Assembly (NCBI GenBank): GCA_028571685.1
Contig: CM053141.1
Coordinates: forward strand, 133,638,833-133,702,832
Reading direction: 5' to 3'
Origin: Heterohyrax brucei
Taxonomy: Eukaryota; Chordata; Mammalia; Hyracoidea; Procaviidae
Length of the DNA stretch: 64,000 nt
Shown here: positions 394 to 44,055 of the stretch, in pieces
Layout: every line of letters begins with the position of its first letter
How positions within the stretch are numbered: the stretch's first letter is position 1
Notes under the pieces: generated by a model
Seen by the model: the letters and a program-made list of their open reading frames with translations, nothing else
Databases searched by the model: none
Told to the model about the DNA's origin: nothing
Translations under genes and position numbers: made by a program

Positions 394-399
394 GAGACC
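394..399. repeat. Provirus target-site duplication, left copy (GAGACC)
   Basis: GAGACC lies directly before the TG of the left LTR and again directly after the CA of the right LTR at 7527-7532. Six bases is the duplication size typical of betaretroviral and IAP-type integrases. Confidence 0.93.
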
Positions 400-478
400 T
401 GTCGCAGCCCAAGTTCCCCTTTGCCCGCAAAGGAGAGGACCGAGACACTGTTTCAGCAGGAGACGAGAAGCGGAACAC

Positions 479-484
479 TTTATT
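479..484 (-). terminator. Polyadenylation signal AATAAA in the 3' LTR
   Basis: AATAAA on the minus strand, about 15 bases downstream of the TATA box. A transcription start 25-30 bases after the TATA would place this signal in late U3, at or just before R. It would then be copied only at the 3' end of the genomic RNA, as in MMTV-like viruses. The exact R boundary is not visible. Confidence 0.6.
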
Positions 485-623
485 TCCTGTTACCACTGCT
501 TTTATACCAAAGGGAGCGAGGCGCCGATAGGATGGGTACTGTCCAATGGGCGATGAGCTGGCTTAGTTGCTGGGCAGACACTGCCGTGGTGAGGGCTTGA
601 GGCAGGGCGCGGTCCTTCCGGTC

Positions 624-636
624 GGCGCCATTTTGG
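624..636 (-). promoter_or_regulatory. YY1-like motif in U3
   Basis: The minus strand reads CCAAAATGGCGCC, close to the YY1 core (AAAATGG/AANATGGCG). It is present in both LTRs (the other copy is at 7487-7499). YY1 sites are known in several retroviral and L1 promoters. Binding here is inference. Confidence 0.35.
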
Positions 637-663
637 TGGCGCAGTCTCCATGAGCTCCCAACA

Positions 664-676
664 TCTCCCCCCTTTT
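664..676 (-). promoter_or_regulatory. 3' polypurine tract of the provirus
   Basis: The minus strand reads AAAAGGGGGGAGA directly before the TG of the 3' LTR, the standard place for plus-strand primer formation. A T/A-rich stretch lies just upstream (677-687). Confidence 0.88.
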
Positions 677-849
677 GTTTTAGTAAGGGTAGGCGAGGCT
701 GCCTGTCTTAGGTCATCCTCTGCGGAAGAACTCTTTACCCGTCATGGGGGTGGCACACAGCAAGGTGTGCTCCCTGTCTTAGGTTGGTAGTTTTCCCAGA
801 GGAGGTTGCCCGTCATTGGCTACACCTCCCTCTGTTCAGGGGGTCGAGG
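677..849 (-). other. Provirus segment between env end and polypurine tract
   Basis: About 170 bp after the last env codon with no open frame that I can assign. It includes a direct echo of pyrimidine/purine motifs near the PPT. I see no accessory gene here. Confidence 0.5.
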
Positions 850-2065
850 CTAGGAGCGATCCAATAGAGACAGCCACACCTGAGCCGATGGATCGCGCTC
901 GGCGGTGTGGGCAAATGCCTGAACAAGTAGACTATAACGGACGCTTTGTTGTCGGGACCGTCTTCTTATCCATAGAACAAGAAATAACACGCTTGCCAGC
1001 AAAGCAGCCCCCAAAAGACCGGTGCCCGCCCACTGCTGGAGGAAGCCGAGCGCACCCTTCAACCAATCACGCAACGAGGTCGCCATGGCAAGATCTACCC
1101 TGGTGGAATTAACCCGTACAATCTCTGTACGCAACTGGGTTAGGAGCAGTTCCATGCGCTGAGACCAATTGGTTTACAGTTGATGCGAAAGGAGGCGGGA
1201 TAGGTTAGCAGCTCAGGAGATATTGTCGAAATGTACCGAGGTCACACACAGGGAGGGGAGGCGCCATGCGCACCCCAACTGGGTGATTTGAACCAGAGAA
1301 TCCAATTGTTCTTGTACCAAGTCTATACGGTGATTCAGGATATGGATAGCCCCCAACACGTGGTCGCTCACAGCCGCCTGGGTCTGGAGAGCAGTAGCAG
1401 TGTTTTGCGCCATGCTATTAACAACGGTGGCAGTTTCAATATTTTGGGTGAAGGCCACAGCGGCAGTAGCGGCTGCAGCTACGGAGGCTGTGACGGCGGC
1501 TACGATCGCCGCAGTGAGGCCGAAATCACGCTTGGATCTCCACAGTTCGGCTGGCGACGGGGATTTCACAGGCCAAGGGACATATCTCGGCAGTCTGGCG
1601 ACTATCGCCGTCTGAAAGAGAGTAGCATTCCAACAAAGAGAGTAAAAGCAAGTGCTGTTGCGGCACTGAATAGAGCTTGTTTGGGAACCGTTGTGAAGCA
1701 GGAACATGAACGGGAGTTGAACACATACGGGAGTGGGGGGGAAGGTAAAAGGTGACACAGGAGTGGCCATCTGTTGTCAGGTCCGATAAGTTGCGGCATA
1801 CCGTGAAGCAGAGCAGGCCTTTCAGGGTGACATTAAGGGGGCGCTGCTCTGGGCTAATACTTTCATCCATAGGAACGGCTGGAAGTTGCAGAGAGTAATT
1901 GGTGGTAAAGAAGCGGGGTAGGAGCGGAGATGTATGATGAACAGGGATTGGTAGGGGCAGGGTGTCTAGTAAACCCCAATACTCATCTGCCCCCTCCGTT
2001 GCTCCCAGGAGGGGGATCCACAGTATCAGCAGCAGTACTGACGGGTTGCGTAGCTGCGGATCCAT
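850..2065 (-). pseudogene. env: Broken betaretroviral env
   Basis: The frame opens at 2065, overlapping the end of pol by about 80 bases as in betaretroviruses. It starts with a hydrophobic signal peptide (residues about 9-22) and has N-glycosylation sites in a short surface-subunit N-terminus. Near 1770-1780 the matching frame changes and the reading jumps to the C-terminal end of the surface subunit. A furin-type RSKR follows, then an Ala/Val-rich fusion peptide, a heptad-repeat-like helix and a C-x7-C pair. A TGA at 1213-1215 and a TAA at 1174-1176 interrupt the same frame before the membrane anchor (near 985-1060) and a cytoplasmic tail ending at 850. Total length is only about 400 codons against 600-700 in relatives, so most of the surface subunit was deleted. 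The protein cannot be made whole from this copy. Confidence 0.88.
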
Positions 2066-4589
2066 CCTTGATAGTCCGAGTGAGGCGTTCCGGGACCCAC
2101 AAAGGGCAGTCAGCGTCCTGTGGGAAGATACAGACTGCCCCTCGGGTGGCGGTTATGACGGGGGCAGGGCCCAACCATTTTCCCGAAATGGTATCCTTCC
2201 ACATTGCCAAGCGGGATCGATGTGTCTCTGTCCCCGAATGGCGCTCTGCCGCCGACTGCCCCTCCCGATCGAGTGAAAGAAAATTTAATGTGAACAGGGC
2301 CAGGGCTAGTCTGTTCTGTGGGGAATGGCCCTCACCAATTCCCCCTTTTTGTTTTAGTAAGCAAGCCTTGAGAGTGTGATGTGCTCGTTCCACTATGCCC
2401 TGGCCTTGAGGATTGTAAGGGATGCCATGGGAGCAGTGGACACGCATGGCAGCTAGGAAAGCCATGAAGGCTTGGCTAGTGTAAGCAGGACCATTATCTG
2501 TTTTAAGAGTGGAAGGGGCTCCCCATGCTGCCCAAGCAGCAAGGCAATGGGAGATAACATGCCGGGCGGTTTCACCTGTATGGGCACTGGCAAAAATGAT
2601 CCCAGAACAGGTGTCCACAGAGACATGCACGTATTTCAATCTGCCAAATTCAGCAATATGTGTGACATCCATCTGCCAGAGGTGACAGGGGCGAAGGCCC
2701 CTTGGATTGACCCCCATCGGCAAGGCCGGGAGATGTGGGGCACAAGCAGTACAGTTGCGGACGATGCCGCGCGCGGCCTCCCGAGAAATGTGAAAATGAC
2801 TAGCAAGGGTTTTAGAATTAACGTGGAATTGTTTGTGGAATTGCAGAGCTTGCTCTAGGGCAGACAGGATAAGGGGAACACGGGTCAAACGGTCTGCAGC
2901 AGCATTACCTTCGGTAATGGGACCCGGAAGGGATTGGTGAGCTCTATGTTGAACAATAAAAAAGGGATGAGTGCGGGAATGAATGAGGTCCTGAATGTTA
3001 CGGAAAACAGCTGCGGCGGGGGAGGCAGAGTTAATTAAGCCAGCTGCCTCCAGACAGAGCACTGCTTGCACTACATAGGCAGAGTCAGAGATTAAATTGA
3101 ATGGGAGGTGAACTTGCTGGAACACCAACTCAACTGCCTTCAATTCTACAATTTGAGCTGAACAGTTAGGGAACAAGTGGGTCTGAGAGGACTGGCCAGG
3201 GATATGAATACTGCCTAGACCAGAGCTAGACCCATCAGTATAGATGGAGATGGCATTTGGGATTGGTTTATTGGAGGTTATCTTGGGGAAGATAACTGGG
3301 TGCCGAGAATAAAATTGTAAAAATGGGTCTTTTGGGTAGTGATTGTCTACGATTCCAGAGAAGGAGCATAGGAGGATGGCCCAGTCATCAGAGGTGGCGG
3401 CCAGGGTCTGGACTTGGGTCTTATCATATGGGATAATGAGCTGCGAGGGGCTGTGTCCCATGAATTGAATAGCTTCAGACAATCCAATAAAGCCCAGTCG
3501 GGCTACAGCGCCAGGGTACCATTCAATACTACGCTGCGGTGACAGGCGGGGATGGATCCAGCGGAGGGGGCCACCCTGCCATAACACCCCGGTAGGTTGG
3601 CGCTGAGTTGGAATAATACATAATAAAAGAGGGAGGGCAGGGTCCCGACGGCTGAGCGAGGCTACGGAGAGGGTACTTTCCACCCGTTCCAGGGCCTCTC
3701 TTGCCTCAGGAGTCAACTCTCGAGGAGAGGACAGGTGGGGGTCGCCCTTAAGAATGTCATATAACGGGGAAAGTTCAAAGTTTGCGAGCGGTAAATAGGG
3801 CCGCACCCACTGAATATCTCCAAGGAGTTTTTGAAAGTCATTGAGTGTGTTGAGGCAATCTTTTCTAAGGGTGACCTTTTGAGGTTGAATAGCCTGAGGT
3901 GAAATTTTCGCCCCCAAGAAGTCTGCTTTATCTCCTCTCTGCACCTTCTCTGGGGCAAGGTGAAGCCCCGCACAGGCCATCGCTTCAGAAAGGGCCATGA
4001 AACATTGCTCCAAAGGAGCAATGGAAGCGGCGGTAAGGAGAATATCATCCATATAATGGATGCAAGTGACTTGGGGCCATTTCAGGAGCACTGGGTACAG
4101 GACCTTGTAAACGAACAGTTGACATAGTGTGGGGCTGTTGGCCATGCCCTGCGGCAGCACAACCCATTCATACCGCTGGTCTGGGGTGGTATGATTTACA
4201 GCCGGCAGGGTAAAAGCAAAATGTGATGAGTCATCTGGATGCAGTGGGATGGAGAAAAAGCAATCTTTAATATCCATCACTATGATCTTCCATCCTTTGG
4301 GGATGGCCGCTAAGCTGGGCAGGCCACGCTGAATGGGGCCCATGACCTCCATAACTGCATTGACAGCACGAAGGTCTTGTAATAGTCTCCATTTTCCTGA
4401 TTTCTTCCTAATAACAAAAATTGGGGTATTCCAAGGGGAATTGGAGGGCTGCAAATGGCCCTTCATGACCTGTTCCTCAACCAGAACGCGAGCAGTTTCC
4501 AGCTTTTCTTTAGGAAGGGGCCACTGAGCCACCCACACCGGCTGTGTGGTAATCCACTTTATCTTTATCTGCTCAGTGGCCCCTACCGA
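1983..4589 (-). CDS. pol: Pol polyprotein: reverse transcriptase, RNase H, integrase
   Basis: An open frame of 868 codons entered by -1 frameshift from pro. It makes the enzymes that copy the RNA genome to DNA and insert it. Numbering from 4538: the RT palm shows D89 in a VMDIKD motif and YMDD at 162-165. RNase H has TDGS (434), an ELKAV glutamate (about 466), SDSAYV (484) and a GNAAAD aspartate (549), so its D-E-D-D set is complete. Integrase has an HHCC zinc site (about 568-599) and a DD35E triad (D624, D681, E717), followed by a C-terminal DNA-binding region. No stop or missing catalytic residue is visible. Add 17 for numbering from the frameshift. The last 80 bases overlap env. No start codon of its own is expected, since it should be made as part of Gag-Pro-Pol. 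Confidence 0.95.
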   Translation of the reverse strand, partial: SVGATEQIKIKWITTQPVWVAQWPLPKEKLETARVLVEEQVMKGHLQPSNSPWNTPIFVIRKKSGKWRLLQDLRAVNAVMEVMGPIQRGLPSLAAIPKGWKIIVMDIKDCFFSIPLHPDDSSHFAFTLPAVNHTTPDQRYEWVVLPQGMANSPTLCQLFVYKVLYPVLLKWPQVTCIHYMDDILLTAASIAPLEQCFMALSEAMACAGLHLAPEKVQRGDKADFLGAKISPQAIQPQKVTLRKDCLNTLNDFQKLLGDIQWVRPYLPLANFELSPLYDILKGDPHLSSPRELTPEAREALERVESTLSVASLSRRDPALPLLLCIIPTQRQPTGVLWQGGPLRWIHPRLSPQRSIEWYPGAVARLGFIGLSEAIQFMGHSPSQLIIPYDKTQVQTLAATSDDWAILLCSFSGIVDNHYPKDPFLQFYSRHPVIFPKITSNKPIPNAISIYTDGSSSGLGSIHIPGQSSQTHLFPNCSAQIVELKAVELVFQQVHLPFNLISDSAYVVQAVLCLEAAGLINSASPAAAVFRNIQDLIHSRTHPFFIVQHRAHQSLPGPITEGNAAADRLTRVPLILSALEQALQFHKQFHVNSKTLASHFHISREAARGIVRNCTACAPHLPALPMGVNPRGLRPCHLWQMDVTHIAEFGRLKYVHVSVDTCSGIIFASAHTGETARHVISHCLAAWAAWGAPSTLKTDNGPAYTSQAFMAFLAAMRVHCSHGIPYNPQGQGIVERAHHTLKACLLKQKGGIGEGHSPQNRLALALFTLNFLSLDREGQSAAERHSGTETHRSRLAMWKDTISGKWLGPAPVITATRGAVCIFPQDADCPLWVPERLTRTIKDGSAATQPVSTAADTVDPPPGSNGGGR
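2341..2361 (-). promoter_or_regulatory. Second, internal polypurine tract inside integrase
   Basis: The minus strand reads CTTACTAAAACAAAAAGGGGG, nearly the same as the true PPT with its upstream flank (CTTACTAAAACAAAAGGGGGG at 667-687). It encodes a lysine/glycine-rich motif late in integrase. It could act as a central PPT, or be only a coding motif. See findings. Confidence 0.45.
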
Positions 4590-4595
4590 AAACCC
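4517..4595 (-). promoter_or_regulatory. pro-pol -1 ribosomal frameshift signal
   Basis: Slippery heptamer GGGTTTT (4589-4595) sits in the pro frame as G GGT TTT, 3 bases before the pro stop. After a 5-base spacer a perfect 13-bp stem follows: arm 4571-4583 GCTCAGTGGCCCC on the plus strand pairs with 4517-4529. Its 41-base loop contains a second perfect 6-bp hairpin (4533-4538 with 4544-4549). The -1 frame after the heptamer is the pol frame. Order, spacing and frame are exactly those of a -1 frameshift site. Confidence 0.85.
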
Positions 4596-5527
4596 AGACC
4601 CTTTCTGCCTACAACACCCTGGGTCTCAATCGGCTCGGGTTTTCCCTGGAGGGTTTTTCCTAGACCCTTCCCTGGAGAATAACCAAATTTCTTCATAATC
4701 TGTTGGGCCACACTCTGGGCTGAGCCCGTATCTGTGTTTTCATTGGTGAGCCGGAGACCCAGGCAATTAAGGACCTCTCTCCCCCACAATGTGATGGGTG
4801 TATCGAGGACATATGGCTGAAAAATCCCATTATGTCCCTCAGCATCTGCCCAGTGTAATTGTTGAGCACTTTTTTGAGGGGTAGAGGCGTAGCCGAGGCC
4901 CCTTAGCAGGTCAGTTGAGGAGCTTAAAGGCCAGGCTGTAGGCCAATCCCTTAAGGAGATGACACTCACATCGGCCCCGGTGTCAAGCAATCCAGTCATA
5001 CTGTGACCATTTACTTGAAGGCTGTAGACAGGACGCTTTCCCAATTCTAGCGATAGCATGGCCAATGTGTTTCCCGTAGATCCAAAGCCTTGGGTTCCCC
5101 GAGAACAAGAGTTGGCCGGAAACAGGGAATGGCAACTAGGAAGTACAAGTAATTGGGCTATCCGGTCCCCTGGACAGAGGGCAGCGATGCCTTTTGGGGA
5201 AGAAACCATAATTCTAATTATGCCAGTGTAGTCGGAGTCAATCACACCCGGGTGGATTACTAGCCCCTTCATGGTGGCACTGCTGCGACCCATGACGATC
5301 CCCACCGTATCTTGTGGGAGGGGACCGGACATGTCAGAAGGCAATGCCTGGACCCCCATCTCGGGGGTTAGTATGAGTCTGGTGGTGTTACGGAGGTCCA
5401 GTCCTGCACTTCCTGCTGTCGCTCTTCTAGGGGTGTGATGGGTAGGGGGTGTCCCTTCCTCGGTTTCTGGACTAGTTGAGCACCGCAAATTTGGGCGGGG
5501 CCCTGGTGCGGAGGGCCCCTCTGGGGG
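4583..5527 (-). CDS. pro: Pro frame: dUTPase, aspartic protease and G-patch
   Basis: An open frame of 314 codons read after a -1 shift from gag; the first shifted codon starts at 5527. Residue numbers here count from 5488. The dUTPase comes first (about 25-140), with AGSAGLDL, a GVIDSDYTG-type uridine-binding segment (about 81-89) and the glycine-rich RGTQGFGSTG end motif (130-139). It lowers dUTP during reverse transcription. The retroviral aspartic protease follows, with LLDTGAD (catalytic D169) working as a dimer to cut the polyproteins. A glycine-rich G-patch (about 263-300) ends the protein, as in betaretroviruses. All key motifs are present. The frame ends at a TAG beside the pro-pol frameshift site. 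Confidence 0.94.
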   Translation of the reverse strand, partial: PPEGPSAPGPRPNLRCSTSPETEEGTPPTHHTPRRATAGSAGLDLRNTTRLILTPEMGVQALPSDMSGPLPQDTVGIVMGRSSATMKGLVIHPGVIDSDYTGIIRIMVSSPKGIAALCPGDRIAQLLVLPSCHSLFPANSCSRGTQGFGSTGNTLAMLSLELGKRPVYSLQVNGHSMTGLLDTGADVSVISLRDWPTAWPLSSSTDLLRGLGYASTPQKSAQQLHWADAEGHNGIFQPYVLDTPITLWGREVLNCLGLRLTNENTDTGSAQSVAQQIMKKFGYSPGKGLGKTLQGKPEPIETQGVVGRKGLGFR

Positions 5528-7125
5528 TTTTTTGGCCTGGCGCCTGGGCCACCAGGGGTGGGTAGGGGTCGCCCATCCTTGGTAGTTTTAGAATAGCAGT
5601 CTGAAGCAAGGTGGCGACCCCGTTCACAGCGGGGGCACAGTGGAGTGTCCGAGGAAGGGCTCCCCTCCCCGGGCGGTGGCTTGCGCCCCTTAAGGGGGCA
5701 GTTTCTTCGGAAGTGATCAGGTTGCCCACAATTAAAGCATCCCGAGGGTTTTTGAGGCCCCCGGGAGGGGACGGTAGATGAGGCTTGTATAGCCGCAACC
5801 ACAGCGGCTGCCAACCCAGAGTTAGCAGGGTTGACATCTCGGCAGAGGCGGAGCCACACTTCTAAACCCTTATTCTTATGGGCTGTGATAATCTTCCTGC
5901 ACTCCTCTGAGCATTGCTCAAAAACCAACTGCTTCAAGAAAACAGTGGTATTAGGGGATTCACCCATGACCTTTTGGACAGAGTCAGACATACGTGCTAC
6001 GAAGTCGGAGAAGGTTTCTGTGGGTTTCTGAAAAATTTTTGTAAGCTGTCCAGCGCCTTCTCCCCTGTGAGGGAGGGCCTGCCAAGCTCTTATTGCTAAC
6101 TTGCCTACCTGCTCATAAACCTGAGGGGGATATTCAGCTTGCTGGTTCACATATGGGCCATACCCCATCAGCATTTCAACCGTCCATTCAGGCTGACGAA
6201 GGACACTAGCGTTCTTCGCTGCTTGTTCAGTGGCATAATCATACATAAGAGACCTCCAGTCGAGGAATTGACCCGGAGACAGACAGGTACGGGCCAAGTT
6301 AGTCCAATCACTGGGCGTCAGGGCGGTCTCCGCCAGGGATCGTAACATACCCAGTACAAAAGGGGAACTGGCCCCATAGGCCCTTACACCATCTGCTAGG
6401 TTTTTGACTAATTTAAAGTCTAGAGGTTCGTGATGGCGATCTCCCTGATCGTCAATAAAAACCGGGAAGGCGGCGGCGTTAAAGCCTCGCCAGAAATTCT
6501 TCCCCAATAGGCTACGCCGCGGGGTGCTGCCATTGTCAGTATTGTTGGGGTTGTAAGGGGGGGGGGCAGAAGGCGAGGGGCAGGGAAGATTGAGCCTCAG
6601 GCCTGATAGTCCTTCCCCTAAACCTGAGGCAGGGTCCCCGTCCGGGGGTTTATCCTTAACCGGAGGGGTCTTTCCCTCAACTCCCCGTGAGCGGTTGCTC
6701 CTATCTCGCGGGTGATAATCTTCGGGGCCATTGTCTGTGCTGCTCCCAGACTCATCGCTGTCTGAGTTTTGAGGAGAGTCGCCTCTCCTCGAGGCCTCCT
6801 CCTGTACCTGTTCAAACGCATCCTGTCCCTGTGTCAATAGCCTTTCGAAGATTCCAGTCTCATCCTGCAAACAGGTTAACACCAGAATCCAGACGCTCAT
6901 CACCCCAGGGGCGAGGCGGCCTTGAGCGTCCTCTCTAGTGAGGTCTCCCCCCAATTTATTCCAGGCGCCCAAGGTGAGGTGGCCCGAAACAAGGAACCAC
7001 GGGGCCGCCTGTTCTACTGCTCTTAAGAAGGCCTCTATGGTTCTTGACTTTATCCCCACTCCCTTGCATTTAAACAAGCCTTTCAGGGAGTGTACCAATT
7101 TCTGGCTAGAAGGTTGATTCCCCAT
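5368..7125 (-). CDS. gag: Gag polyprotein (matrix, capsid, nucleocapsid)
   Basis: A 585-residue open frame, the structural polyprotein that builds the particle. The start at 7125 has a good context (G at -3, G at +4), and MGNQPSS gives a myristoylation-type glycine 2. Matrix occupies about residues 1-110, then an acidic, serine-rich linker. PSAP and PPPY late-domain motifs overlap at 185-191. Capsid starts near residue 220, with a major homology region at 366-378 (Q, E, F and R in place). The nucleocapsid has two intact CCHC zinc knuckles (463-476 and 497-510). The frame overlaps pro by about 160 bases, with the slippery site at 5527-5533 near the end. No frameshift or stop is seen, which is unusual for an endogenous copy. 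Confidence 0.96.
   Translation of the reverse strand: MGNQPSSQKLVHSLKGLFKCKGVGIKSRTIEAFLRAVEQAAPWFLVSGHLTLGAWNKLGGDLTREDAQGRLAPGVMSVWILVLTCLQDETGIFERLLTQGQDAFEQVQEEASRRGDSPQNSDSDESGSSTDNGPEDYHPRDRSNRSRGVEGKTPPVKDKPPDGDPASGLGEGLSGLRLNLPCPSPSAPPPYNPNNTDNGSTPRRSLLGKNFWRGFNAAAFPVFIDDQGDRHHEPLDFKLVKNLADGVRAYGASSPFVLGMLRSLAETALTPSDWTNLARTCLSPGQFLDWRSLMYDYATEQAAKNASVLRQPEWTVEMLMGYGPYVNQQAEYPPQVYEQVGKLAIRAWQALPHRGEGAGQLTKIFQKPTETFSDFVARMSDSVQKVMGESPNTTVFLKQLVFEQCSEECRKIITAHKNKGLEVWLRLCRDVNPANSGLAAAVVAAIQASSTVPSRGPQKPSGCFNCGQPDHFRRNCPLKGRKPPPGEGSPSSDTPLCPRCERGRHLASDCYSKTTKDGRPLPTPGGPGARPKNPQRGPPHQGPAQICGAQLVQKPRKGHPLPITPLEERQQEVQDWTSVTPPDSY
5483..5533 (-). promoter_or_regulatory. gag-pro -1 ribosomal frameshift signal with likely pseudoknot
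   Basis: Slippery heptamer AAAAAAC (5527-5533) lies in the gag frame as A AAA AAC. After a 7-base spacer a perfect 8-bp GC-rich stem follows (5512-5519 with 5497-5504) around a 7-base loop. Five loop bases (5507-5511) can pair with 5483-5487 downstream, giving an H-type pseudoknot. The shifted frame is pro. This matches the betaretroviral gag-pro arrangement. Confidence 0.9.
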
Positions 7126-7242
7126 GTCTATGTGATTTCAGGCTATCTACAAGCCTCCGGTTAATACCGACCCGGTAAATACCGTCCCAGGCAACTGCCT
7201 GCTCACCTGTCCGGGCGTCCCCGCGGTGAGGGTCGCTTCAGG
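7126..7242 (-). other. Provirus 5' leader between primer site and gag
   Basis: About 117 bases of untranslated leader. Packaging and splice-donor signals are expected here in this family, but I cannot pinpoint them by eye. Confidence 0.5.
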
Positions 7243-7260
7243 CCCCACGTTCGGGCGCCA
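7243..7260 (-). promoter_or_regulatory. Primer-binding site, tRNA-Lys(1,2)-like
   Basis: The minus strand reads TGGCGCCCGAACGTGGGG, two bases after the end of the 5' LTR. It pairs with the 3' end of a lysine tRNA. It fits the Lys-1,2 type (ending in ACGTGGGG) better than Lys-3, with one extra base in the middle compared with the common Lys-1,2 site. Confidence 0.8.
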
Positions 7261-7262
7261 GA

Positions 7263-7526
7263 TGTCGCAGCCCAAGTTCCCCTTTGCCCGCAAAGGAGAG
7301 GACCGAGACACTGTTTCAGCAGGAGACGAGAAGCGGAACACTTTATTTCCTGTTACCACTGCTTTTATACCAAAGGGAGCGAGGCGCCGATAGGATGGGT
7401 ACTGTCCAATGGGCGATGAGCTGGCTTAGTTGCTGGGCAGACACTGCCGTGGTGAGGGCTTGAGGCAGGGCGCGGTCCTTCCGGTCGGCGCCATTTTGGT
7501 GGCGCAGTCTCCATGAGCTCCCAACA
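7263..7526 (-). repeat. Provirus 5' LTR (264 bp)
   Basis: TG...CA ended and identical by eye to 400-663. It would drive the proviral transcript leftward. The TATA box is at 7362-7369 and the AATAAA at 7342-7347. Confidence 0.94.
7362..7369 (-). promoter_or_regulatory. Proviral TATA box
   Basis: The minus strand reads TATAAAAG in the 5' LTR, with a CCAAT-type motif about 40 bases upstream. It should place transcription start near 7335-7342. Confidence 0.7.
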
Positions 7527-7532
7527 GAGACC
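7527..7532. repeat. Provirus target-site duplication, right copy (GAGACC)
   Basis: Perfect match to 394-399, with L1 sequence resuming right after it. Confidence 0.93.
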
Positions 7533-10284: not shown

Positions 10285-10481
10285 TGGCACTAAATCAATT
10301 CCAGCTGATGGTTACCCCACCTATGTCAGAGTAGAACTATGCTCCATAAGGTTTTCAGTGGTTGATTTTTCAGAAGTAGATCACCAGGGCTTTCTTCCGA
10401 GGCATCTTTGGGTACACTCTACCTTCCAACCTCTCACTTAGAAACCAAGTGCATTAACTATTTGCATTACTCAGAGCAAGG
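10285..10481 (-). mobile_element. AfroSINE-type tRNA SINE
   Basis: Reverse-strand copy. It reads from a SINE tail (a CAGTTGGCACTAAATCAATTC-like start) through the body with GTAGATCACCAGGGC to the tRNA-like head (AACTATTTGCATTACTC). Confidence 0.75.
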
Positions 10482-10482
10482 A

Positions 10483-10635
10483 AAAAGCCACTGTTATCGA
10501 GTGAATTCCAACTAATAGAGACGCTACAGAAGAGAGTAGAACTGCCCCACATAGTTTCCGAGGAGCACCTCGTAGATTCAAACGGCCGACCTTCTGGCTA
10601 ACAGTGACTTAACCACATCACCAGGGTTTCCAGAG
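10483..10635 (-). mobile_element. AfroSINE, second subtype
   Basis: Adjacent to the previous SINE. In reverse complement it has the GGAAACCCTGGTGATGTGGTT head, box-B-like GTTTGAATC and the GGTGCTCCTCGGAAAC body. Confidence 0.75.
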
Positions 10636-11792
10636 AAATGAAAGAGTGCCTAAAATAATAGGAGATTAGGGGAAAAGAGACTAGAAAGGCAAACGATCTG
10701 GACTCATACTGAGTCATGGTAGAAGCAGATTCAGAGAACTGAGCCAAACATGTTCTTGAAACCAGAACTGGCTAGGATGAAAGGAGAGGTTCAGAAAGTG
10801 AGATCATAAAACCAATTTCAAGTAGGCACAGTATTTATACATAGATGTAAAATAGATTCTACGAGATTTCAAATGCCCCTAAACTAGAGCTGTGATGCCC
10901 AAAAGGGGCACTTTAAAGCAATAAGAAAGCACATTCCCCTTTATTAGTCCTAGTACACAAAATATTTGTGTGTGTTTTATATATGTTGAGGTTTTCCTTA
11001 GACACACAACTATAGATAAGACATTCAGGTAGGAAGCAACCATTACAGTCTTGTAGTAGAAACATTATGTTCTACTTAGCTAAGAAGCTGGCTTAAATGA
11101 TGTACTTTGTATTGACTTTAAAATACCAGTGAAATAGATGGCCCCCTCACGGACTTGAGGCTATCTCAGGAGTTCACAGGCAAAAGCAGATACATGTCCA
11201 CACAGTTAGTAAATATTATGTTCTCCTTATCTGCCTGGCCAGTCTTTACGCAAGCCGAGCAAATAAGGAGAACACGGTATTGACCAACTGTGTGGAGTGG
11301 ACACCTTATTTTACAGCATGTTAGTACTGCTAAAAGATAAAAATCAGCAATAACTAAAGAGAAAAAGAATGGTTATAAAGTGAAATTTTTGGAATATAAA
11401 ATGAAATACGCTATGCAAACATATATTGATTTCTAAAAACATTCTTTCCAATTTATCTTTCTCAATTATGGATTTCAGTATCCTTTTCTATATCTATGGT
11501 AAGAACTGGGAAATTATCCCAGTGACTGATACAACGTGAATTATCAAAAAGATCACTAGAATTAAGCTAGAATGTCTATTGTAGTATTTGTTCACAAACA
11601 GAATAGTTGTAATACCATTGCCTAGCTATACACCCTTGTACAAATTATTTAATCTGACTCTGTTTATCATCTTGAAATACAGAATAAAAATATCTTCTTT
11701 ATCTATACACATGATATAAGAGCAAATAACATATATATGGAAGTTTACCAAAAACTACCAAGCGAAGTGAAGGCATTCAGTTTGGTTAAAGC
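10636..11792. other. No gene; mostly unassigned sequence with a 100-base inverted repeat
   Basis: AT-rich, with no supported coding frame and no repeat family that I recognise. The one structured element is the inverted repeat at 11197-11296, listed separately. Confidence 0.5.
11197..11296. repeat. Inverted repeat, 38-base arms with 24-base loop
   Basis: Arm 11197-11234 pairs with 11259-11296 at 32 of 38 positions, counted by eye, including runs of 11 and 13 bases. It lies outside any repeat family I recognise. It could be a decayed palindromic DNA transposon (MITE) or a hairpin RNA source. Confidence 0.7.
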
Positions 11793-13052: not shown

Positions 13053-13569
13053 GGACACCCTTGGCACATGGTAGACTTTCAGTGAACCCAAGTAGAGATT
13101 GACAATCCACCTCTTCCTCTGCAAATCAGGAAACTGGAGTTCAGGGAAATAAGGAAATTAACCAATAGATGAGATCCCTAGCCTCAGAATTCACAGGGCT
13201 CTTTCCACAGCAGCAAGCTTATGGATCTGCAGATTGCAACAGTGTAAAAAACAAACAAATAGATCAAGGAGAAAATCTTCAGGCTGTGTTTCTTAGTTGA
13301 GTCATCTAACGAATCACAGAAGAGAATGAATGAAGTGGGAGGAGACATAAAATAATCTTTTACCTAATATGTTCAGTGAAGTATTATGGCCCCACTCCAA
13401 CCAAATCTTCTAATTAAAGTTTATTGTTTGGTAAAATACATTCTAACACCACTACACATTGCAATATTATTTAGGCATTAAAAAGAATGAAGTAGGTCAA
13501 CATGTACTTGCATAGCTGTGCCCAAAAGATTTAGTGAAGAAAGAAAATTGCCCATCCCCACAAATTATG
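13053..13569. other. No gene; possible MIR remnants
   Basis: CTCTGCAAATCAGGAAACTG near 13118 resembles a MIR in reverse, but is too decayed to bound. Nothing else is recognised. Confidence 0.35.
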
Positions 13570-13735
13570 GACCCCAGGTGGTACAGTGATTAAGAGCTTG
13601 GCTGCTCATCAAAAGACTTGCAGTTCGAATCCACCAGGTGCTCCTTGGAAACCGAACGGGGCAGTTTTATTCTGTCCTATAGGATCTCTATAAAGCAGAA
13701 CTGACTTAATGGAAACAGGTTAACAGATAGCACGC
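13570..13735 (+). mobile_element. AfroSINE
   Basis: CCCAGGTGGTACAGTGATTAAG head, GTTCGAATCCACCAGGTGCT box-B region and a GGGGCAGTTTTATTCTGTCC body. Confidence 0.85.
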
Positions 13736-24620: not shown

Positions 24621-25609
24621 CACTTAAAATGTGAGAAATCAGAGTTTCCTTTCCCACACAGTGTTTTCACAATACATGAAATAAACCCTTAATGTCCATA
24701 AAAGCTTCCTCTTAGGAAATGTCTGGAAATACTTCAAACAAAATACTAGCATTTAACTATTTCTTTTCCTAAGAAATAAAATATTTTAACAGATTCATTT
24801 AGGAAATATCATATGTTGTAGGTGATACATTAGAGGAGAAGTGAAAAAATCCATCCTCATACCCAGATGTGGCTGGGAATTCTTTCTGGAGTTGTAGACA
24901 ATTACTGTGTATATTTTTAACCATGATTTTAGATGACCTTATAGCATTGGGAATTGCACCATTTTATAGCCCAGAAGTGATTATATAAAATTGTGTTAAG
25001 GTGATTATAATAAGAACTACATAGGCAGTAATGTTTGCTGCTTTGCAAAACATTTAGCCCAGGAGACCCTTTAAAGCTGAATGGAATGAAAAATGCTGGT
25101 GGTCATATTACACCTGCTACTCAAGTAAAAGTTAGCTCATTGGCAGCCACCACCTAGCACTATTTTCTTTGACTCTTATGTCTCATTTACCACTTGACAC
25201 GAGAGTAGATATTTATATCCTTGAAGAATATAAAACTGATTAGTTACTTAGTATCACATTCTAAACCTTTTCCCACTGTACCTGTATGTCATTTTAATTT
25301 AAAATTTTCTTATTTGAAGACAGTGATTCTTGATTCATTTAGGAACATCAGTGAAGGTGACATAAAAACAAAAATAAATTAATAATTTTAAAGTGACTCT
25401 TCAGACTAATATTAAAGTAAATTTATTTTAGTAGGAAATTTGTCTCTTAATGCATAAAAACCTTTGAGTTTTTAAGCATTTTTCAATATTGAAATAATTA
25501 GGTCTTTGTAATTTTTCTATACTTGTCATTAAGAAACTCATAAAAAGGACATTTATCATGTTTTTCCTTATACAAAGAGTATTTCCATGACTCCATACAG
25601 TTGATATGG
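24621..25609. other. No gene or recognised repeat
   Basis: About 1 kb of AT-rich sequence with no supported frame. It is probably unique or very old repeat sequence. Confidence 0.45.
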
Positions 25610-27112
25610 AAGAATTGATGAAGTAAAAGGGATGAATAGAAGATATCAAAGGGCAGCTTGAGAAGCTGAAGTATTATAATAAAACCTGCAAAGACCTAGA
25701 GTTAAAAAAAGCCAAAAGGGGAAGAACCAGCTCAGCATTTCTCAAGCTGAAAGATTTGAAGAAAAAACTCAAGCCTTAAGTTCAACACTGAAGGATTCTA
25801 CATGCAGTAGTTAAAGGGATCAATTGTTAGCTGGAAGGCTGGTGATTCAAATCTACTAGCAGCTTTGGCTCTGCAGGAGAAAAATGTGGAAGTCTACTTC
25901 CATAGAGATTTATAGGCTTGGAAACTCTATGGGGTTGCTATGTGTTAGAATTGACTTAATGGTGATGGGATTTTTCTTATGGGCAAACTATTGAATGTCA
26001 CAGGAAGAATCACAAGAAGGTGGAAGGAATAAGCCTAGTCACTGTTTCAAAAAGAATTGTCTGACATTCAACCATTTCAGGTGGTAGCATCTAATCAAGA
26101 ACCAATGGTACTGAAGGAAAAAGTCCACACTGTGCTAGGAAGCATTAGTAAAACACAAAGCTTTGGGAATTGACAGAATACCAACTGAGATGCTTCAACA
26201 AATGGATGTAACACTGGAAGCACTCAGTCCTCTATTCCAAGAAATTTGGAAGACAGCTACTTGGCCAACAAACTGGAAGAGACTCATATTTGTGCCTATT
26301 TCCCCCCCCCCAAAAAGATCCAGTGGAATGTGGAAATGATCAAACAATATCATTAACATTACATGCAAGCAAAATTGTTGAGGATAACTCAAAACTGGCT
26401 GCCAGAAATTCAAGTTGGATTCAGCAGAGGGCATGGAACAAGGGATATTATTGCTGATACCCAGTAGATCCTGGATAAATGCATAAATACCAGAGAGATG
26501 TTGACTTGTGTATTGTGGACTACACAAAGTCTCTCCACTATGTTAATCATAACAAATTATGTGTAACCCTGAAAAGAATGGGAATTCTGGAATACTTAAT
26601 TGTGCTCATGCAGAACCTGTACACAGACTAAGAAAGTAATTCAAACAGAACAAGAGGATACGGCATGGTTTAAAATCAGGAAAGGAGTGCATCAGGGGTG
26701 TATCCTTTCAATGTATTTATTCAATCTGTATGCTGAATAAACAAAAAATCTGGTCTACAGGAAGAGGAAAATAGCATCAAGATTGGAGAAAATCTTGTTA
26801 ATAACCTGCAATATGCAGATGAAACAACTTTGCTTGCTAAAAATGAAGAGGACTTGAAGCACATACTGCTGAAGATCAAAGACTACAGTCTTCAGTGTGG
26901 ATTACACCTTAATATAAAGAAAACAAAAATCCTTACAGCTGGACCAATAAACAGCAGTATGATAAATGGAAGGTAATTAAAGTTGTGGAAGACTTCATTT
27001 TACTCAAAGTCACCACAATCAATGTCCATGGAAGTAGCAGTCAAGAAGTCAAACATATCATACTGAACAAATTTACTGCAAGAGGCCACTTTAAGATGTT
27101 AAAAAGCAACTA
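25610..27112 (+). mobile_element. RTE LINE (endonuclease linker and RT region), with a SINE inside
   Basis: Includes the RT stretch AATATGCAGATGAAACAACT (the YADD-type motif region, about 26812). It is interrupted by a SINE at 25799-25985 and has stops in all frames. Confidence 0.8.
25799..25985 (+). mobile_element. AfroSINE inside RTE
   Basis: ATGCAGTAGTTAAAGG head remnant, TTCAAATCTACTAGCAGC and an ATGTGTTAGAATTGAC tail. RTE sequence continues on both sides. Confidence 0.75.
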
Positions 27113-27835: not shown

Positions 27836-27875
27836 AAATGTTAGTTTTTGTCCAGATGTTTATATATATATATCT

Positions 27876-28032
27876 GGAAACCCTGGTTGCAAAGTGGTTA
27901 AGGGCTATGACTGCTAATCAAAAGGTCAGCAGTTCAAATCTACCAGGACCTCCTTGGAAACTCTATGGGGCAGTTCCACTGTATCTATAGGGTTGCTGTG
28001 AGTTGGAATTGACAGCCGTGGGTTTGGATTTT
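27876..28032 (+). mobile_element. AfroSINE
   Basis: GGAAACCCTGGTTGCAAAGTGG head, GTTCAAATCTACCAGG box B and a GGTTGCTGTGAGTTGG tail. TA and CA microsatellites lie on either side. Confidence 0.9.
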
Positions 28033-28072
28033 TTTTTTTTTTGGTTTACATATATATACACACACACAATTA

Positions 28073-28232
28073 TGAAAACCCTGGTGTCATAGTGGTTAAG
28101 AGCCTCAGCTGCTAACCAAGCAGTTTGAATCCACCAGGTGCTCCTTGCAAACTTAGTGGGGCAGTTCTACCCCATGCTAGAGGGTCACTATGAGTTGGCA
28201 TCAACTTGATGGCAACAGGTTTGGGTTTTTTG
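28073..28232 (+). mobile_element. AfroSINE
   Basis: GAAAACCCTGGTGTCATAGTGG head and a CACTATGAGTTGGCATC tail. Confidence 0.9.
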
Positions 28233-28479
28233 TTGTTGTTTTATACACAATCACAACTGCATCACTCCCTGTACCAACTCAGAATAGTAACCAGAGAAGC
28301 ACTGAAAAAAAGTGCCTCAGTTTGGATAACATGACTCACCTTCTTTGAAAAGCGTTGTGGAAGCTTGGATCAGGAAGAGACCTTAGACGTTGTCTAGTTC
28401 AATCTCATTGCTTAGATTCCTTCTAGAACATTCTCCTGTTTACATGCCTCTCATAAAGGGTGGCTCAGTATTTCTTCCA

Positions 28480-28835: not shown

Positions 28836-29944
28836 ACATTTTCTTGTTTGTTCCATTTTCAAATGGTTATTAATCTGATCTGTTTTTTAAAAAAATATTT
28901 TACTGTGCTTTAATTGAAAGTTTAAAATCTAACTTAATTTGTGATACAAAAACTTACACACACACAACTATGTATCTAGCTTTCTCCCCACCCTGTGACA
29001 GCACATGCCTTCTTTCCACCCTGTATGTCCCTTGCCCATTCAACTGGCTGCATTCCCCCGTTCCCTCTCATCTTACCTCTAGACAGGAACTGTCTGGTTA
29101 GCCTCATGTATCTAGTTAAGCCAAGAAGCACATGCTTTAGCAGTACCATTTTATGTCTTATACTCCAGTCCAATCTTTGTCTGAAGAACTGGTTTCAATA
29201 CTAGTTGCAGTTCTGGGCTAACAAAGAGTTACAGGGGGCATATCCTCCAGTTTGCAGACCATCAAGTCTAGCCTTTATAAATTAGAGTTCAAGTTCTGCA
29301 ACCTCATCTTTCTCCCCCTACATCAAGAATGCTATGTTGTGTTCCCTGTCAGGCAGTCACTAGTGGTGGCTAGGCACCATCTAGTTCGTATGGTCTCATG
29401 CTAATGTAGTCTGTGGATTATATGGCCCTTTCTGTCTCTTGGGATCATATTTTCCTTATGTCTTTGATGTCCTTCATTCTTCTCTGCTCTTGGTGTGTAG
29501 CGACCAATTGGTGCTACATAAGATGACTACTTGACAACTTTTAAGACCTTAGATGCCACTCACCAAAGTGGGTTGTAGAATATATTCTTAATAAATTTTG
29601 TTTTGTCAGTTGACCTAGAAGTCCCCTGAAACCATGGTCCCCAGACCACTACCTCTATTACTCTGTCCTTCGAAGTATGTTGGGTTGCACTTAGGAAAAT
29701 TCCTAACTTTTGGTTCAGTCCTGTTTTGCCTACTTCTCCTTTAATATGTGATGTCCCTCCTTTCACCTAATGTAATTCTACTGTCCAAATAATGAATACG
29801 CTTCTCCTTCCTCCTCATCCTTATAATCATCAAAGATTGCTTTCTTCTGTGTTTAAATCATTCCTTGAGTCCTTATAAAATAGTGGTTACATACAATATT
29901 TGTCTTTTTGAAACTGATTAATTTCGCTCCCACTTGTCTGTCAG

Positions 29945-30145
29945 TGGAAACCCTGGTGGCATAGTAGGCTAAGTGCTATGTCTGCTAACAAAAGGTCAGC
30001 AGTTCAAATATACCAGGCACTCCTTGAAACTCTATGGGGCAGTTCTACTCTGACCTCTAGGGTCAGTATGAGTCTGACCCCACTCAATGGTAGTGGGTTT
30101 GGGGTTTTTTTTTTCTTGTTTTACTTATTTATTTATTTATTTTTA
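29945..30145 (+). mobile_element. AfroSINE inside the RTE 5' end
   Basis: GGAAACCCTGGTGGCATAG head, box B GTTCAAATATACCAGG, and a tail ending in TTTATTTATTTATTT. The flanks TGTCTGTCAGTGG / TTATCTATCGGTGG resemble a target duplication. Confidence 0.85.
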
Positions 30146-32763
30146 GTTATCTATCGGTGGAGGCCTGCTTGTTGCTGTGATGTTGGAAGCTAAGCCACTG
30201 GTATTTAGGTACCAGTAGGGTAACCCATAGTAGGAAGGTTTCAGCTGAGCTTCCAGATTAAGACAGGCTATAAAGAAGGACCCAGTGGTCTATGTCTGAA
30301 AAGAATTAGCCAGGCAAAACCTTACGCATAGCAGCTGAACATTGTCAGATACAGTGCTGGAAAGTGAGCCCAACAGGCTGGAAGACAGAAGATGACTGGA
30401 GAACGAGCTGCCTCTTCAAAGGAGAGCGGACCTTAATGACACGGATGGAGAAAGACCTCTGGAATCTTCCTTTGCTGATGTAGTACAACTCGAAATGAGA
30501 AAAAACAGCTTCAAACATCCATTAATAATCAGGACATGGAAAGCACGAAGTATGAATCTAGGAAAATTGGAAATCATCAAAAATGAAATGGAATGAATAT
30601 AAAGCAATATCCTAGGCATTAGTGAGCTGAAATGGACCAGTATTGGCCATTTTGAATCCAATAGTCACATGGTCTACTATGCTGGGGACAAAAACTTGAA
30701 GAGGAATGGCGTTGCATTCATCATCAAAAAGAACACTTTAAGATCTGTCCTGAAGTACAATACCATCAGTGATAGGATAATATTCACATGCCTGCAAGGA
30801 AAGCCAGTGAATACGACTATTCAAATTTCTGCACCAACCACCAAGGCCAAAGATGAAGACACTGAAGATTTTTACCAGCTTCTGCAGCCTGAAAGTGATT
30901 GAACATGTAATCAGGATTCATTGATAATTACAGGTGACTGGACTGCAAAAGTTGGAAACAAAGAAGAATGATCAGTAGTTGCAAAATAAGGCCTTGGTGA
31001 CAGAAATAATGCCGGAGATTGCATGATAGAATTTTGCAAGACTAATGACTTCTACACTGCAAATATATTTTTTAACCAAAACAAATATCAACTGTAAGCA
31101 TGGACCTCACCAGATGGAATACACAGGAACCAAATCAATTACATCTGTGGAAAAAGACAATAGAAAAGCTCTATATCAGCCATCAGAACAAGATCAGGTG
31201 CTGAACACAGCACAGAGCAATTGCTCATAAGCAAATTCAAATTGAAACTGAAGAAAATTAGAATAAGCCCACTAGAGCCAAAGTATGGCCTTCAGAATAT
31301 CCCTCCTGGGTTTAAAGACCATCTCAAGAACAGATTAGATGTGCTGGTCACTAGTGACTGAAGACCAGATGAATTGTGGAATGATATCAAAGACATCATC
31401 CATGAAGAGAGCAAGAGGTCATTAAAAGGACAGGAAAGAAAGAAAAAGACCAAATTAGATGTCAGAAAAGACTCTGAAACTTGCTCTGGAACCTCAAGCA
31501 GCTAAAGCAACAGGAAGGAATGGTGAAATAAAAGACCTAAACAGAAGATTTCAAAGAGCAGCTTGAGAAGACAAACTATTATAATGACGTGTGCAAAGAG
31601 CTAGAAATGGAAAACCAGAAATGAAGAACGTGTTCTGGATTTCTCAAGCTCAGAGAACTGAACAAAAAATTCACGTCCCAAGTTGCAATAGTGAAGGATT
31701 CTACAGGGAAACTATTAAATGACTCAGGGAGCATCAAAAGGAGATGGAAGAAATACATGGAGTCATCATACCAGAAAGAACAGGTCAGCATCCAGCCATT
31801 TGAAGAGGTAGCGTATGACTAGGAACCAATGGTACTGAAAGAATAAGAAGAAGCTGCATTGAAGGCACTTTCAAAAAAAAGGCTTCAGGAATTGATGGAA
31901 TATCAACTGAAATATTTCAGTGAACAGATGCAGTGCTGAAAGTGCTCACTCATCTATGCCAAAAAACTTAGAGAACAGCTACCTGGCCAACTGACTAGAA
32001 GAGATCCACGTTCATGCCCATTCCAAAGAAAGGTGATCCAACAGAATGCAGAAATTACTGAACAATATCATTAATATCACATACAAGTAAAATTTTGCTC
32101 AAGATCATTCAAAAGCGACGGCAACAGTATACTGACGAGGAACTGCCAGAAATACAAGCTGAATTAGAAGAGGACATGGAACCAGGGACATCATTGCTGG
32201 TGTCAGATGGATCTTGGCTGAAAGTAGAGAATATCAGAAAAATGTTTACATGTGTTTCATTGATTATGCGAAGGCATTTGACTATGTAGATCATAATAAA
32301 TTATGGCTAACATTGTGGAGAATGGGAATTCCAGAACACCTAATTGTGCTCTTAAGGAGTCTATATATGGGTCAAGAGGCAGTCATGCAAACAGAACAAG
32401 GGCACACTTTATGGTTTAAAATGAGGAAAGGTATGCATCAGGACTCTATCCTTTTACTGTACCTTTTCAATGTATAGGCTGAGCAAATAAACTGAGAAAC
32501 TGAGTTCTGCAAAGAAGAATGAGGCATTAGGATTGGAGGATGACTTATTAACAACCTGTGTTATGCAGACAACACCACCTTTCTTGCTGAAGTGAAGATT
32601 TGAAACACTGATGAAGATCAAGGACCACAACCTTCAGTCTGTACTGCACCTCAACATCAAGAAAACAAAATTCCTCACCACTGGACCAGTAAGCAACATT
32701 GTCATACATACAGAAAGGATTGAAGTTCTCAAAGATTTCATTTTTCTTGGGTCCACAATTGTT

Positions 32764-38835: not shown

Positions 38836-38858
38836 AAGAATCCAACTGATTTCCCTGT

Positions 38859-38985
38859 GTCTGCTAACCAAAAGGCTGGCAGTTGAAATCCACCAGACAC
38901 TCCTTGGAAACTCTATGGGGCAGTTCTACTCTGTCCTATAGGGCCACTATGAGTCAGAATTGACTCGACAGCAGTAAGTCTTTTT
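38859..38985 (+). mobile_element. AfroSINE, 5' truncated
   Basis: Starts within the tRNA head (TGTCTGCTAACCAAAAGG) and ends CTATGAGTCAGAATTGACTCG. Confidence 0.85.
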
Positions 38986-41489
38986 TTATCTTGTATCTTG
39001 ATCCTTTGCTGAACTCCACTGTTAGTTCTAGTGGGGTTTTCTGTGTGTCTGATCATATCTACTAGTAAAGATATTTCCATTTCTTCCTTACCAATTTGGA
39101 TGCCCTTTATTTTTTTATCTTATCTGATATGTTATTAAATTCTGTTAGCTAGAATTTGTTAAGAACTTTAGCACCAAATTTCATAAAAAGTATCAGTCTG
39201 TAATTCTCCTTTTTTGTGGTTTATCTACCTAGTTTTTTGTATCAGGGTTATGCTGGCTTCATCGAATGAGTTTGGTAGTAGTTTATCCTTCTGTATACTG
39301 TGAAATACATTAATAGTGGTGTTAACTCTTCTCTAAAACATTTGGTAGAATTCTCCAGTGAAAACATCAAGACCAAGGCTATTTGGGGTTGAGTTTTTTT
39401 AATTACTTTTTCAAGCTCTTCTTTTTTTATGAGTTATTGTTTCGTTATTCATTTACCATTATTTGTGTTAGTTTAGATAAGTAGCGTGTACCTAGAAATC
39501 TGTCTGTTTCCTCTAGGTTTCCCAGTTCATTGTAGTTTTTTATAGTATTCTCTTACGATTCTTTTAATTAGAATTGGGATTGTTTTGATATCACCCATTT
39601 CACTTCTTACTTGTGTTATTTTCTTCCTGTCCTGTTTTTCTTTCATCAGTGTGGCCAGTGGTCTATCAGTTTGTTGATCTTTTCAGAAAATCAGCTTTTG
39701 GTCTTGTTAGCTCTTTAAACTGGTTTTCGGTTCTCTAACTCATTTAGTTCTGGTCTAATTTTTATTATTTGCTTTTTTCTGCTGCCTGAGGGCTTCTTTC
39801 GCTATACTCTTTCTACTTACTCAAGTTGTAGGAGTAATGCTTTGATTTGGGCCCTGGCTTCTTTTTGTATTTGTGCATTTACTCAGATAAATTGACCTCT
39901 CAGCACTACTTCTGCTATGTTCCAAAGGTTCTGCTGGGATATGTTTTCATGCTCATTGGATTCTGTGAATTTCTTTTTTCTTTGATTTTTTTTTTAACTC
40001 AGTAGTTTTTCAGTTAGATCTTTTTCAGTTTCCACATGTTTAATTTTTTTCCCTTTTTCTGTTATTGATTTCTACTTTTATGGCTTTAAGATGCCTTGTA
40101 ATATTTCAACACTTTGAACTTTGTTAAGATTTGTTTTAATGCATGATATGTAGTCATACACTTTGTGCTATTGGGTGGAGTGTTGTATGTATATCTATGA
40201 GGTCAAGTTGGTTGATTGTGACATTTATATCATCCATGTCTTCACTGAAAATCTTTTTGTATGCTCTGTCTTTCACTGATAGTAGTGTGTTGAAGTCTCC
40301 TACTATTATTGTGGAGCTGTCTATTTCTATTTCCAGTACAGTCAGAGTTTTGTTTCCAGTGCAGTCAGAGTTTGTTTTATGTATTTTGGAGCCCTGCTGT
40401 TAAGTGTGTAAATATATTATAAAGTTATGTCCTCCTGATGGATATATTTAATCATTAAACAGTGTCCTTCCTTGTCCACTATGCTGGATTTTACTTTAAA
40501 GTCTATTTTATCGGAAATTAATATTGCTACCCCTGCTCTTTTACAATGTTGTTCACTTGGTATACATATTTTTTCCATCCTTTGGGTTTTAATTTGTTTG
40601 TGTTTTTAAGCCTACAGTATGTCTCTTGTAGACAGCATGTACACAGATAATGTATTTTTTATCTAATCTGCCACTCTCAATCTTGTTATTGGTGCATTTA
40701 ATTCATTTACATTCAGAGTATATTGATAGGTATGAATGTAGTGCTGTCATTTTGACATTCTTTTTTGTGCATTGTAGACAATTCCTTTGTTCTACTTAAT
40801 TTTCTATGCTGAGTCACTTTTGTTTGGGATAGTCTTTTCATCTTTTTCACTGTTGGTGGTTTTGTATTTGCAGGGACTTCATGTTTTCCTTGTTTTTATT
40901 TTGATGTGTAGGATTTTTTTTTTTTTTTTTTGCACAGTTACCTATATATTTACCCTTTTTCTAAGTTTAAAAGTCTTTCATTTCTTTATAGCACCTGACT
41001 TCCTCTATATTATAAAAGATCTATGATACATTTAAGTTTCTCTTTTTTGTTGTAATGTTGGCATAATAATATCTCCTTTTCCCTCTTTTCAGTGTTTTGT
41101 TTTTCTTTTATTTTTTGTGATTTTCTTGTCTGGGTTGATATCCATTTTGTCTGTTTTGTGTTCTAGTCTTGGGTTGTTATCCGATGTTACTGATTTTCCA
41201 GCTAAAAGACTACCTTTAATATTTCTTGTAGTTTTTGTTTGTTTGTTTCCAAATTCCCTAAATTTGTGTTTATCTGGAAATGTCCTAATTTTGCTGTATT
41301 TGAGAGAGAGTTTTGCTGGATATGTAATTCTTGGCTGGCCATTATTTCCCTTCAAGAGTTCATATGTATAATTCTGTTGGCTTCTTGCCTTCATGGTTTC
41401 TGCTAAGTAGTCCAGTCTTAGTCTTATTGACTTTCCTTTGTAGATTATTTTTCATTTTTCCCTAGCCATTTTATTTATTTATTTATTCA

Positions 41490-41655
41490 TTGAAACCCTG
41501 GTGGCATAATGGATAAATGCTACAGCTGCTAAATGAACAGTGGACTATTCGAATCTGCCAGGGTCTCCTTGGAAATTCTATGGAGCAGTTATACTCTGTC
41601 CCATAGGATTGCTATGAGTCAGAATCGACTCAATGACAGTGGGTTTGGTGTTTGG
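41490..41655 (+). mobile_element. AfroSINE
   Basis: GAAACCCTGGTGGCATAATGG head and tail CTATGAGTCAGAATCGACTC. A TTTA run lies just upstream. Confidence 0.9.
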
Positions 41656-43870: not shown

Positions 43871-43884
43871 TGTGTTTTAACAAG

Positions 43885-44055
43885 ATCCCTGGAAACTCTA
43901 GTGGTATAGAGGCTAAGTGCTAAAGTTGCTAACCAAAGGGTCAGCAGTTCGAATCCACCAGGCACTCCTTGGAAACTGTGTGGGAAATATTCTACTGTAT
44001 CTTCTAGGGTCACTATGAGTCAAAACAGACTTCATGGCAAAAAGTTTGTTTTGTG
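43885..44055 (+). mobile_element. AfroSINE
   Basis: CCTGGAAACTCTAGTGGTATAG head, box B GTTCGAATCCACCAGGCACT and tail CACTATGAGTC. Confidence 0.85.

Follow-up and report, generated by a model that had tools for sequence, protein, structure and literature searches.

The 64,000-nucleotide window analysed here, from Heterohyrax brucei (assembly GCA_028571685.1, contig CM053141.1, positions 133,638,833 to 133,702,832), carries a provirus at 400–7526 on the minus strand, flanked by GAGACC and inserted within an L1 element. We conclude that it is very probably a young class II (betaretrovirus-like, IAP-like) endogenous retrovirus (ERV) of a family that lost its env in a common source element and then spread, with the Gag, Pro and Pol that it encodes, to about 90 places. 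Searching the 3.49-Gb host genome with a 51-nt pattern across the env deletion join, we found 90 places, segmental duplicates included, of which 84 matched without mismatch, and the reversed-pattern control gave 0. As judged from these genomic matches, the recurrence of the same join at 90 places shows that env was dead before the family spread; env loss that is common to the copies and precedes amplification is a trait of superspreader families. The 1130-nt env remnant was full length in all 40 scored matches (the best 40 of 256 candidates). All 52 scored pol matches were full length at 99–100% identity and 48 of them had no stop, a share that is biased upward because the most similar of the 5737 first-look candidates were scored first. 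Many copies thus keep pol open, and the LTR pairs described below show that the spread was recent.

Such a history would have begun with a frame-shifting deletion in the surface subunit (SU), which would have destroyed env in the common source element, and two stops in the transmembrane subunit (TM) would have arisen before or after it. The family would then have spread by reverse transcription of RNA packaged in particles built from the Gag, Pro and Pol of the family itself, with Gag and Pol presumably shared between copies during germ-line retrotransposition, and the roughly 90 places would now be occupied in part by later segmental duplicates.

The provirus and its broken env

The original prediction, made from the letters of the window, described a young provirus with identical long terminal repeats (LTRs) and intact gag, pro and pol, and gave neither its orientation, nor the broken env, nor the two in-frame −1 frameshift heptamers (Table 1). 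Intactness holds for gag, pro and pol, which, as had been claimed, lack stops and have all catalytic motifs. They are open over 589, 334 and 880 residues, respectively, in three different frames of the minus strand, and their Pfam domains above the cut-off are p10, p24, two zinc knuckles, dUTPase, protease, G-patch, reverse transcriptase (RT), thumb, RNase H and integrase. Using general definitions of the catalytic motifs, we located by position five dUTPase motifs, the protease DTG, the G-patch, the YMDD of RT, the D-E-D-D of RNase H and the HHCC and DD35E of integrase. Each frame overlap holds one heptamer in canonical phase, and an extra in-phase heptamer at 4640–4646 falls outside the pro/pol overlap. 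The stem 3′ of the pro/pol heptamer is unusually stable (z −4.41), and that 3′ of the gag/pro heptamer is no better than shuffles (z −0.08). The layout of a class II element (gag, pro with dUTPase, and pol in three frames with two predicted −1 frameshifts) is present, together with a p10 matrix, a p24 capsid, two CCHC knuckles, a 6-bp target duplication and an LTR of the form TG...CA.

Intactness fails for env, whose broken state had been overlooked and means that the provirus as a whole cannot count as intact. One frame of the remnant is open and encodes a signal peptide and the N-terminal part of SU; another encodes the C-terminal part of SU, an RSKR cleavage site, a fusion peptide and TM, the last with two stops. 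A sister family in the same genome has an open env; relative to it, about 0.5 kb of SU is absent and the reading frame is lost at the join. The N-terminal SU piece had no trusted match in Pfam or PDB. The TM piece scored below the Pfam GP41 cut-off (26 versus 29.6 bits) and matched PDB 9nnd, titled ‘Endogenous retrovirus group K member 7 Pol protein’ (E 1e-5), as well as a chain titled ‘Transmembrane protein, Fibritin’ (1.3e-5); we take both to be Env chains.

Computed alignment of the two LTRs found 264 of 264 bases equal, with zero differences, in agreement with what had been called by eye, and the GAGACC duplication is perfect on both sides, also as described. When the flanks were joined and aligned to the other L1 copies of the window, two of ten alignments spanned the insertion site; both were continuous across it, one with a 3-nt gap at the insertion point. 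The primer-binding site, putatively of lysine-tRNA type, has one extra base relative to the Lys1,2 site. We considered whether an LTR of 264 bp is unusually short and rejected this idea, as type D betaretroviruses have LTRs of about 300 nt (PMC3621094).

Table 1. Positions of provirus features in the window
Feature	Positions	Strand	Basis or remark
Target-site duplication GAGACC	394–399		3′ side of provirus
3′ LTR, 264 bp, same sequence as 5′ LTR	400–663	−	computed comparison
Polypurine tract adjoining 3′ LTR	664–681	−	sequence
env remnant	853–2065	−	two frames, ~0.5 kb of SU missing versus sister family, two stops in TM
pol frame: RT, thumb, RNase H, integrase	1983–4625	−	
pro frame: dUTPase, aspartic protease, G-patch	4583–5587	−	
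pro/pol −1 frameshift heptamer G GGT TTT, in frame	4589–4595	−	sequence
gag: MGNQ start, p10 matrix, PSAPPPY late domains, p24 capsid, two zinc knuckles	5368–7125	−	
gag/pro −1 frameshift heptamer A AAA AAC, in frame	5527–5533	−	sequence
Splice-donor-like CAG/GTGAGC in leader	7201–7209	−	consensus match only
Primer-binding site, lysine-tRNA type	7242–7260	−	sequence; tRNA assignment putative
5′ LTR, 264 bp, TG...CA; TATAAA at LTR position 158, AATAAA at 180	7263–7526	−	
Target-site duplication GAGACC	7527–7532		5′ side of provirus

Age and copies of the family

To the scored pol matches we added their LTRs, which were fetched for 50 of the 52 besides the window itself, giving 51 copies. Both LTRs were 264 nt long in 41 of these (ten were dropped), and removal of shared upstream flanks left 37 distinct-flank insertions, 35 of them with a matching 6-bp duplication. 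The 37 pairs differ at 26 positions over 37 × 264 sites, a mean of 0.27%: 21 pairs have no difference, 10 have one, three have two, two have three and one has four. Substitution rates of 2.2e-9 and 4.5e-9 per site and year translate the mean into about 0.6 and 0.3 million years (Myr), respectively, and the most divergent pair into 3.4 or 1.7 Myr; a single 264-bp pair with zero differences is compatible with an age of at most 2.6 Myr (95%) at the lower rate. One private change marks the two LTRs of the window and is absent from the 72 others, as expected if a single template gave rise to the pair. The observed/expected ratio of CpG is 0.56 in the provirus versus 0.16 in window positions 7533–64000, and reaches at most 0.257 across 50 overlapping blocks outside the provirus. 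The identical LTRs, the CpG content and the low divergence of the 37 insertions all uphold the recent insertion that had been proposed.

A pattern from a piece of the LTR was found at 186 places (control 0) versus 180 expected at two per env join, which suggests that solo LTRs are few, as inferred from pattern totals rather than by direct count. Together with the env joins and the stop-free pol matches, this number strengthens the earlier suggestion that the family may have active members. We found no description of this provirus family in the literature searched, whose coverage lacks most subscription journals; a search of IMG/VR gave no relative, and Rfam and tRNA scans gave zero matches.

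Some copies lie close together on the host contigs, which we label C1, C2 and so on. Twelve env-join copies are clustered at 23.6–32.4 Mb of C18, where one group of five has a 20-nt flank in common and another five have identical 6-base sequences downstream. Both groups we take to be segmental duplicates, although the case for the second is thinner, and the cluster is probably a segmental duplication carrying proviruses. At C11:50.42–50.45 Mb, three env-join copies are spaced by exactly 12,703 bp, which looks like a tandem duplication whose units each hold a short provirus. LTR-to-LTR spacing is shortened to 4174–4175 bp at C4:57.40, C4:122.21, C2:124.38 and C11:50.42 Mb; these copies are perhaps an internally deleted subfamily that was amplified separately.

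Gag, the sister family and the route of spread

Of 74 scored gag matches (from 2476 candidates), 19 covered the whole protein, 15 of them without stops; 48 start near codon 152–185, one ends early and six belong to another family. We asked whether most copies carry a different matrix domain and rejected this possibility, because in 20 N-terminal gag pieces the coding start differs from that of the window by 0–2 substitutions and the length change follows it. Apart from that change, and a 71-nt leader insertion in two of the 20, no indel was found in about 700 nt. The length change lies near codon 187–190 in 15 of 16 broken copies, the sixteenth piece being uncovered there, and also in one continuous copy. 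One single-base run, which we read in 40 pieces, has the window length in 14 of 16 continuous copies and another length in 22 of the 23 broken copies read (of 24, one is uncovered). The remaining broken copy has the window length, and its length change sits a few codons away. Copies on C18 that resemble duplicates of one insertion carry different downstream gag frames, which points either to real instability of the run or to poor assembly of it.

These data suggest that the majority of copies may depend on Gag supplied in trans, and that those broken at the run were probably moved by the Gag of continuous copies. It is also plausible, at somewhat less than an even chance in our judgement, that the differences in length stem from faulty sequencing or assembly and that most copies are truly open in gag. 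The concentration of the differences in one single-base run, a kind of site at which assemblies are prone to error, and the discordant frames of presumed duplicates on C18 would fit this explanation, but a few run lengths recur over many loci, the surrounding 700 nt are otherwise nearly free of indels, and one broken copy keeps the window run length. For comparison, most frameshifts made by HIV-1 RT in vitro occur at single-base runs (PMC3185545).

Six loci of the sister family have an open Gag of 616 residues that is 57–58% identical to that of the window, an integrase about 82% identical, and an env open over 571 codons; a furin-like site is present in five of the six, pol is interrupted in one, and the one env frame that was scanned scored above the GP41 cut-off. 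In four loci the LTR pairs are near-identical (301/301, 302/302, 299/301, and 306 positions with one mismatch and one gap). Integrase comparisons at three loci gave a synonymous divergence (Ks) of about 1.6 and a ratio of nonsynonymous to synonymous divergence (Ka/Ks) of 0.07, which indicates that the families parted long ago and that integrase was kept under selection; env Ks between them is saturated. A search with a C-terminal env piece found nine sister copies at 99% identity or above among the best 40 of 97 candidates. The other 31 of these 40 are 68–72% identical and are older relatives of the sister family, some of them on the candidate X and Y contigs, C27 and C28. The env-dead family thus outnumbers its env-bearing relative, as superspreaders do, at 90 join places versus nine copies, although the two numbers come from different types of query, the first includes duplicates and the second is drawn from the 40 candidates scored.

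How the copies travelled can be weighed against this background. We lean towards new copies arising mostly by a cycle that stays inside cells of the germ line or early embryo. Spread by reinfection, with Env supplied in trans by the co-resident sister family, is unlikely, and we give no more credence to an occasional escape in particles dressed with sister Env. The open sister env, the young sister LTR pairs and the membrane and budding motifs retained in the window Gag would permit reinfection, but the two families are distant by integrase and Gag, close sister copies are few (n = 9) and the sequence alone holds no sign of co-packaging. Also unlikely is a scheme in which a hypermutable run at the late-domain codons of Gag acts as a random on/off switch: slippage during reverse transcription or replication would yield mostly Gag-broken, pol-competent progeny, the Gag-continuous minority would move the rest in trans and the sister family would be an optional helper. 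Finally, an old insertion whose LTRs were made identical by gene conversion, assembly collapse or duplication is scarcely credible: C18 does carry segmental duplicates of this family, but the same low LTR divergence in 37 distinct-flank insertions, the private change in both window LTRs and the high CpG throughout the provirus, beyond the LTRs, speak against it.

Several points weigh against a young family that spread, after losing env, with the Gag, Pro and Pol that it encodes. The family is known here from its genome sequence; the open-pol share is inflated by the order of scoring; the C18 groups are duplicates rather than new insertions; 48 of the 68 family Gag matches start only near codon 152–185, so that many copies may be dead; and the MG start and PSAPPPY in Gag also fit particles budding at the cell surface. 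The last point does not decide the budding mode, because a named hamster IAP Gag has both MG and PPxY, as does the window Gag.

Other repeats, kinship and known systems

Outside the provirus, LINEs (long interspersed nuclear elements) and LTRs of the window are generally decayed, as had been stated, with one partial exception. A 428-bp direct repeat (59134–59561 and 61882–62306) is 94.6% identical, less decayed than the window’s other repeat pairs, and could be the LTRs of another insertion. LINE copies at 25608–27109, 30157–32757, 46485–49556 and 53105–55736 are related and 66–80% alike; the frame at 55013–55462, which we take to be RTE/BovB-like, gave no match in a protein search. Old tRNA-like SINE (short interspersed nuclear element) copies lie at 10475–10660, 13555–13725, 27870–28250, 29940–30150, 38850–38996, 41465–41700 and 43870–44080. 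Ten SINE copies were aligned; the element presumably resembles AfroSINE, and a 22-nt word from it had no match in the literature searched. A P53-domain search (13 of 13 candidates scored, 10 matches) gave three multi-exon loci and a single isolated match with stops; as elephants carry many TP53 copies, an elephant is disfavoured as host.

We placed the window Pol, which is at most 59% identical to the best 120 of 677 relatives, in a tree of 52 rows (kept from 121; midpoint root; one named type D virus). It falls within a 42-row IAP-like clade with support 100/98, apart from the SRV4 group, and is basal in that clade, the fork from the other 41 rows not being firm (91/85). The placement of Gag is unsure because of its long branch in the Gag tree (40 rows kept of 87), and close kinship to Rhynchocyon gag was rejected, as the two are 40% identical and not sisters in that tree. 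Among the matches listed, 54 long Gags include 18 with an MG start and 28 with PPxY; those starting with MNSELF (n = 20, one named Mus musculus) have MG in none and PPxY in one. Mouse IAP Gag lacks a myristoylation signal and goes to the endoplasmic reticulum; the window Gag, with its MG start and PSAPPPY, does not share the lack of that signal. The dead env agrees with the intracellular (IAP) form, and the open env of IAPE is absent. On these sequence characters we do not file the provirus as IAP proper.

Amplification after env loss has precedents in mouse IAP and in some further mammals. To judge from the genome, the IAP/IAPE ‘env-less superspreader’ pattern is present in an afrotherian. 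One genome that holds a common env-dead family and a rare env-open one, both young, offers a natural test of the effect of env loss and of whether Gag must change first, as Gag here still has the motifs of a budding virus. The age of the insertions suggests that some may still be segregating in living hyraxes.

Like HERV-K (HML-2), the family has the dUTPase–protease–G-patch, RT and integrase organization, and the best PDB match of its RT is 7sr6, titled ‘Polymerase’ and presumably of HERV-K origin; HERV-K (HML-2) differs in its far longer LTRs and in a history that depended on env. The superspreader families FcERV gamma 6 and MLERV1_3 are gammaretrovirus-like, as their names imply, whereas the window family is class II. 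They resemble it in that env loss is tied to amplification (PMC4643047). Mouse IAP and IAPE resemble it in an IAP-like Pol, a lost env, youth, many copies and an env-bearing relative in the same genome (PMC2531183). Unlike mouse-type IAP, the window Pol is basal and distant from its best relatives and the window Gag keeps both motifs, and unlike in IAPE, the env-bearing family here is a distant sister rather than a direct parent. The dasyurid marsupial element MEBrv 3 (PMC11334065) is also about 7.3 kb long, with open gag, pro and pol, a degraded env, identical LTRs and amplification, but it is basal to extant mammalian betaretroviruses, its LTR measures 469 rather than 264, and its env trace is of class I type, whereas the TM of the window provirus resembles the HERV-K/GP41 type.

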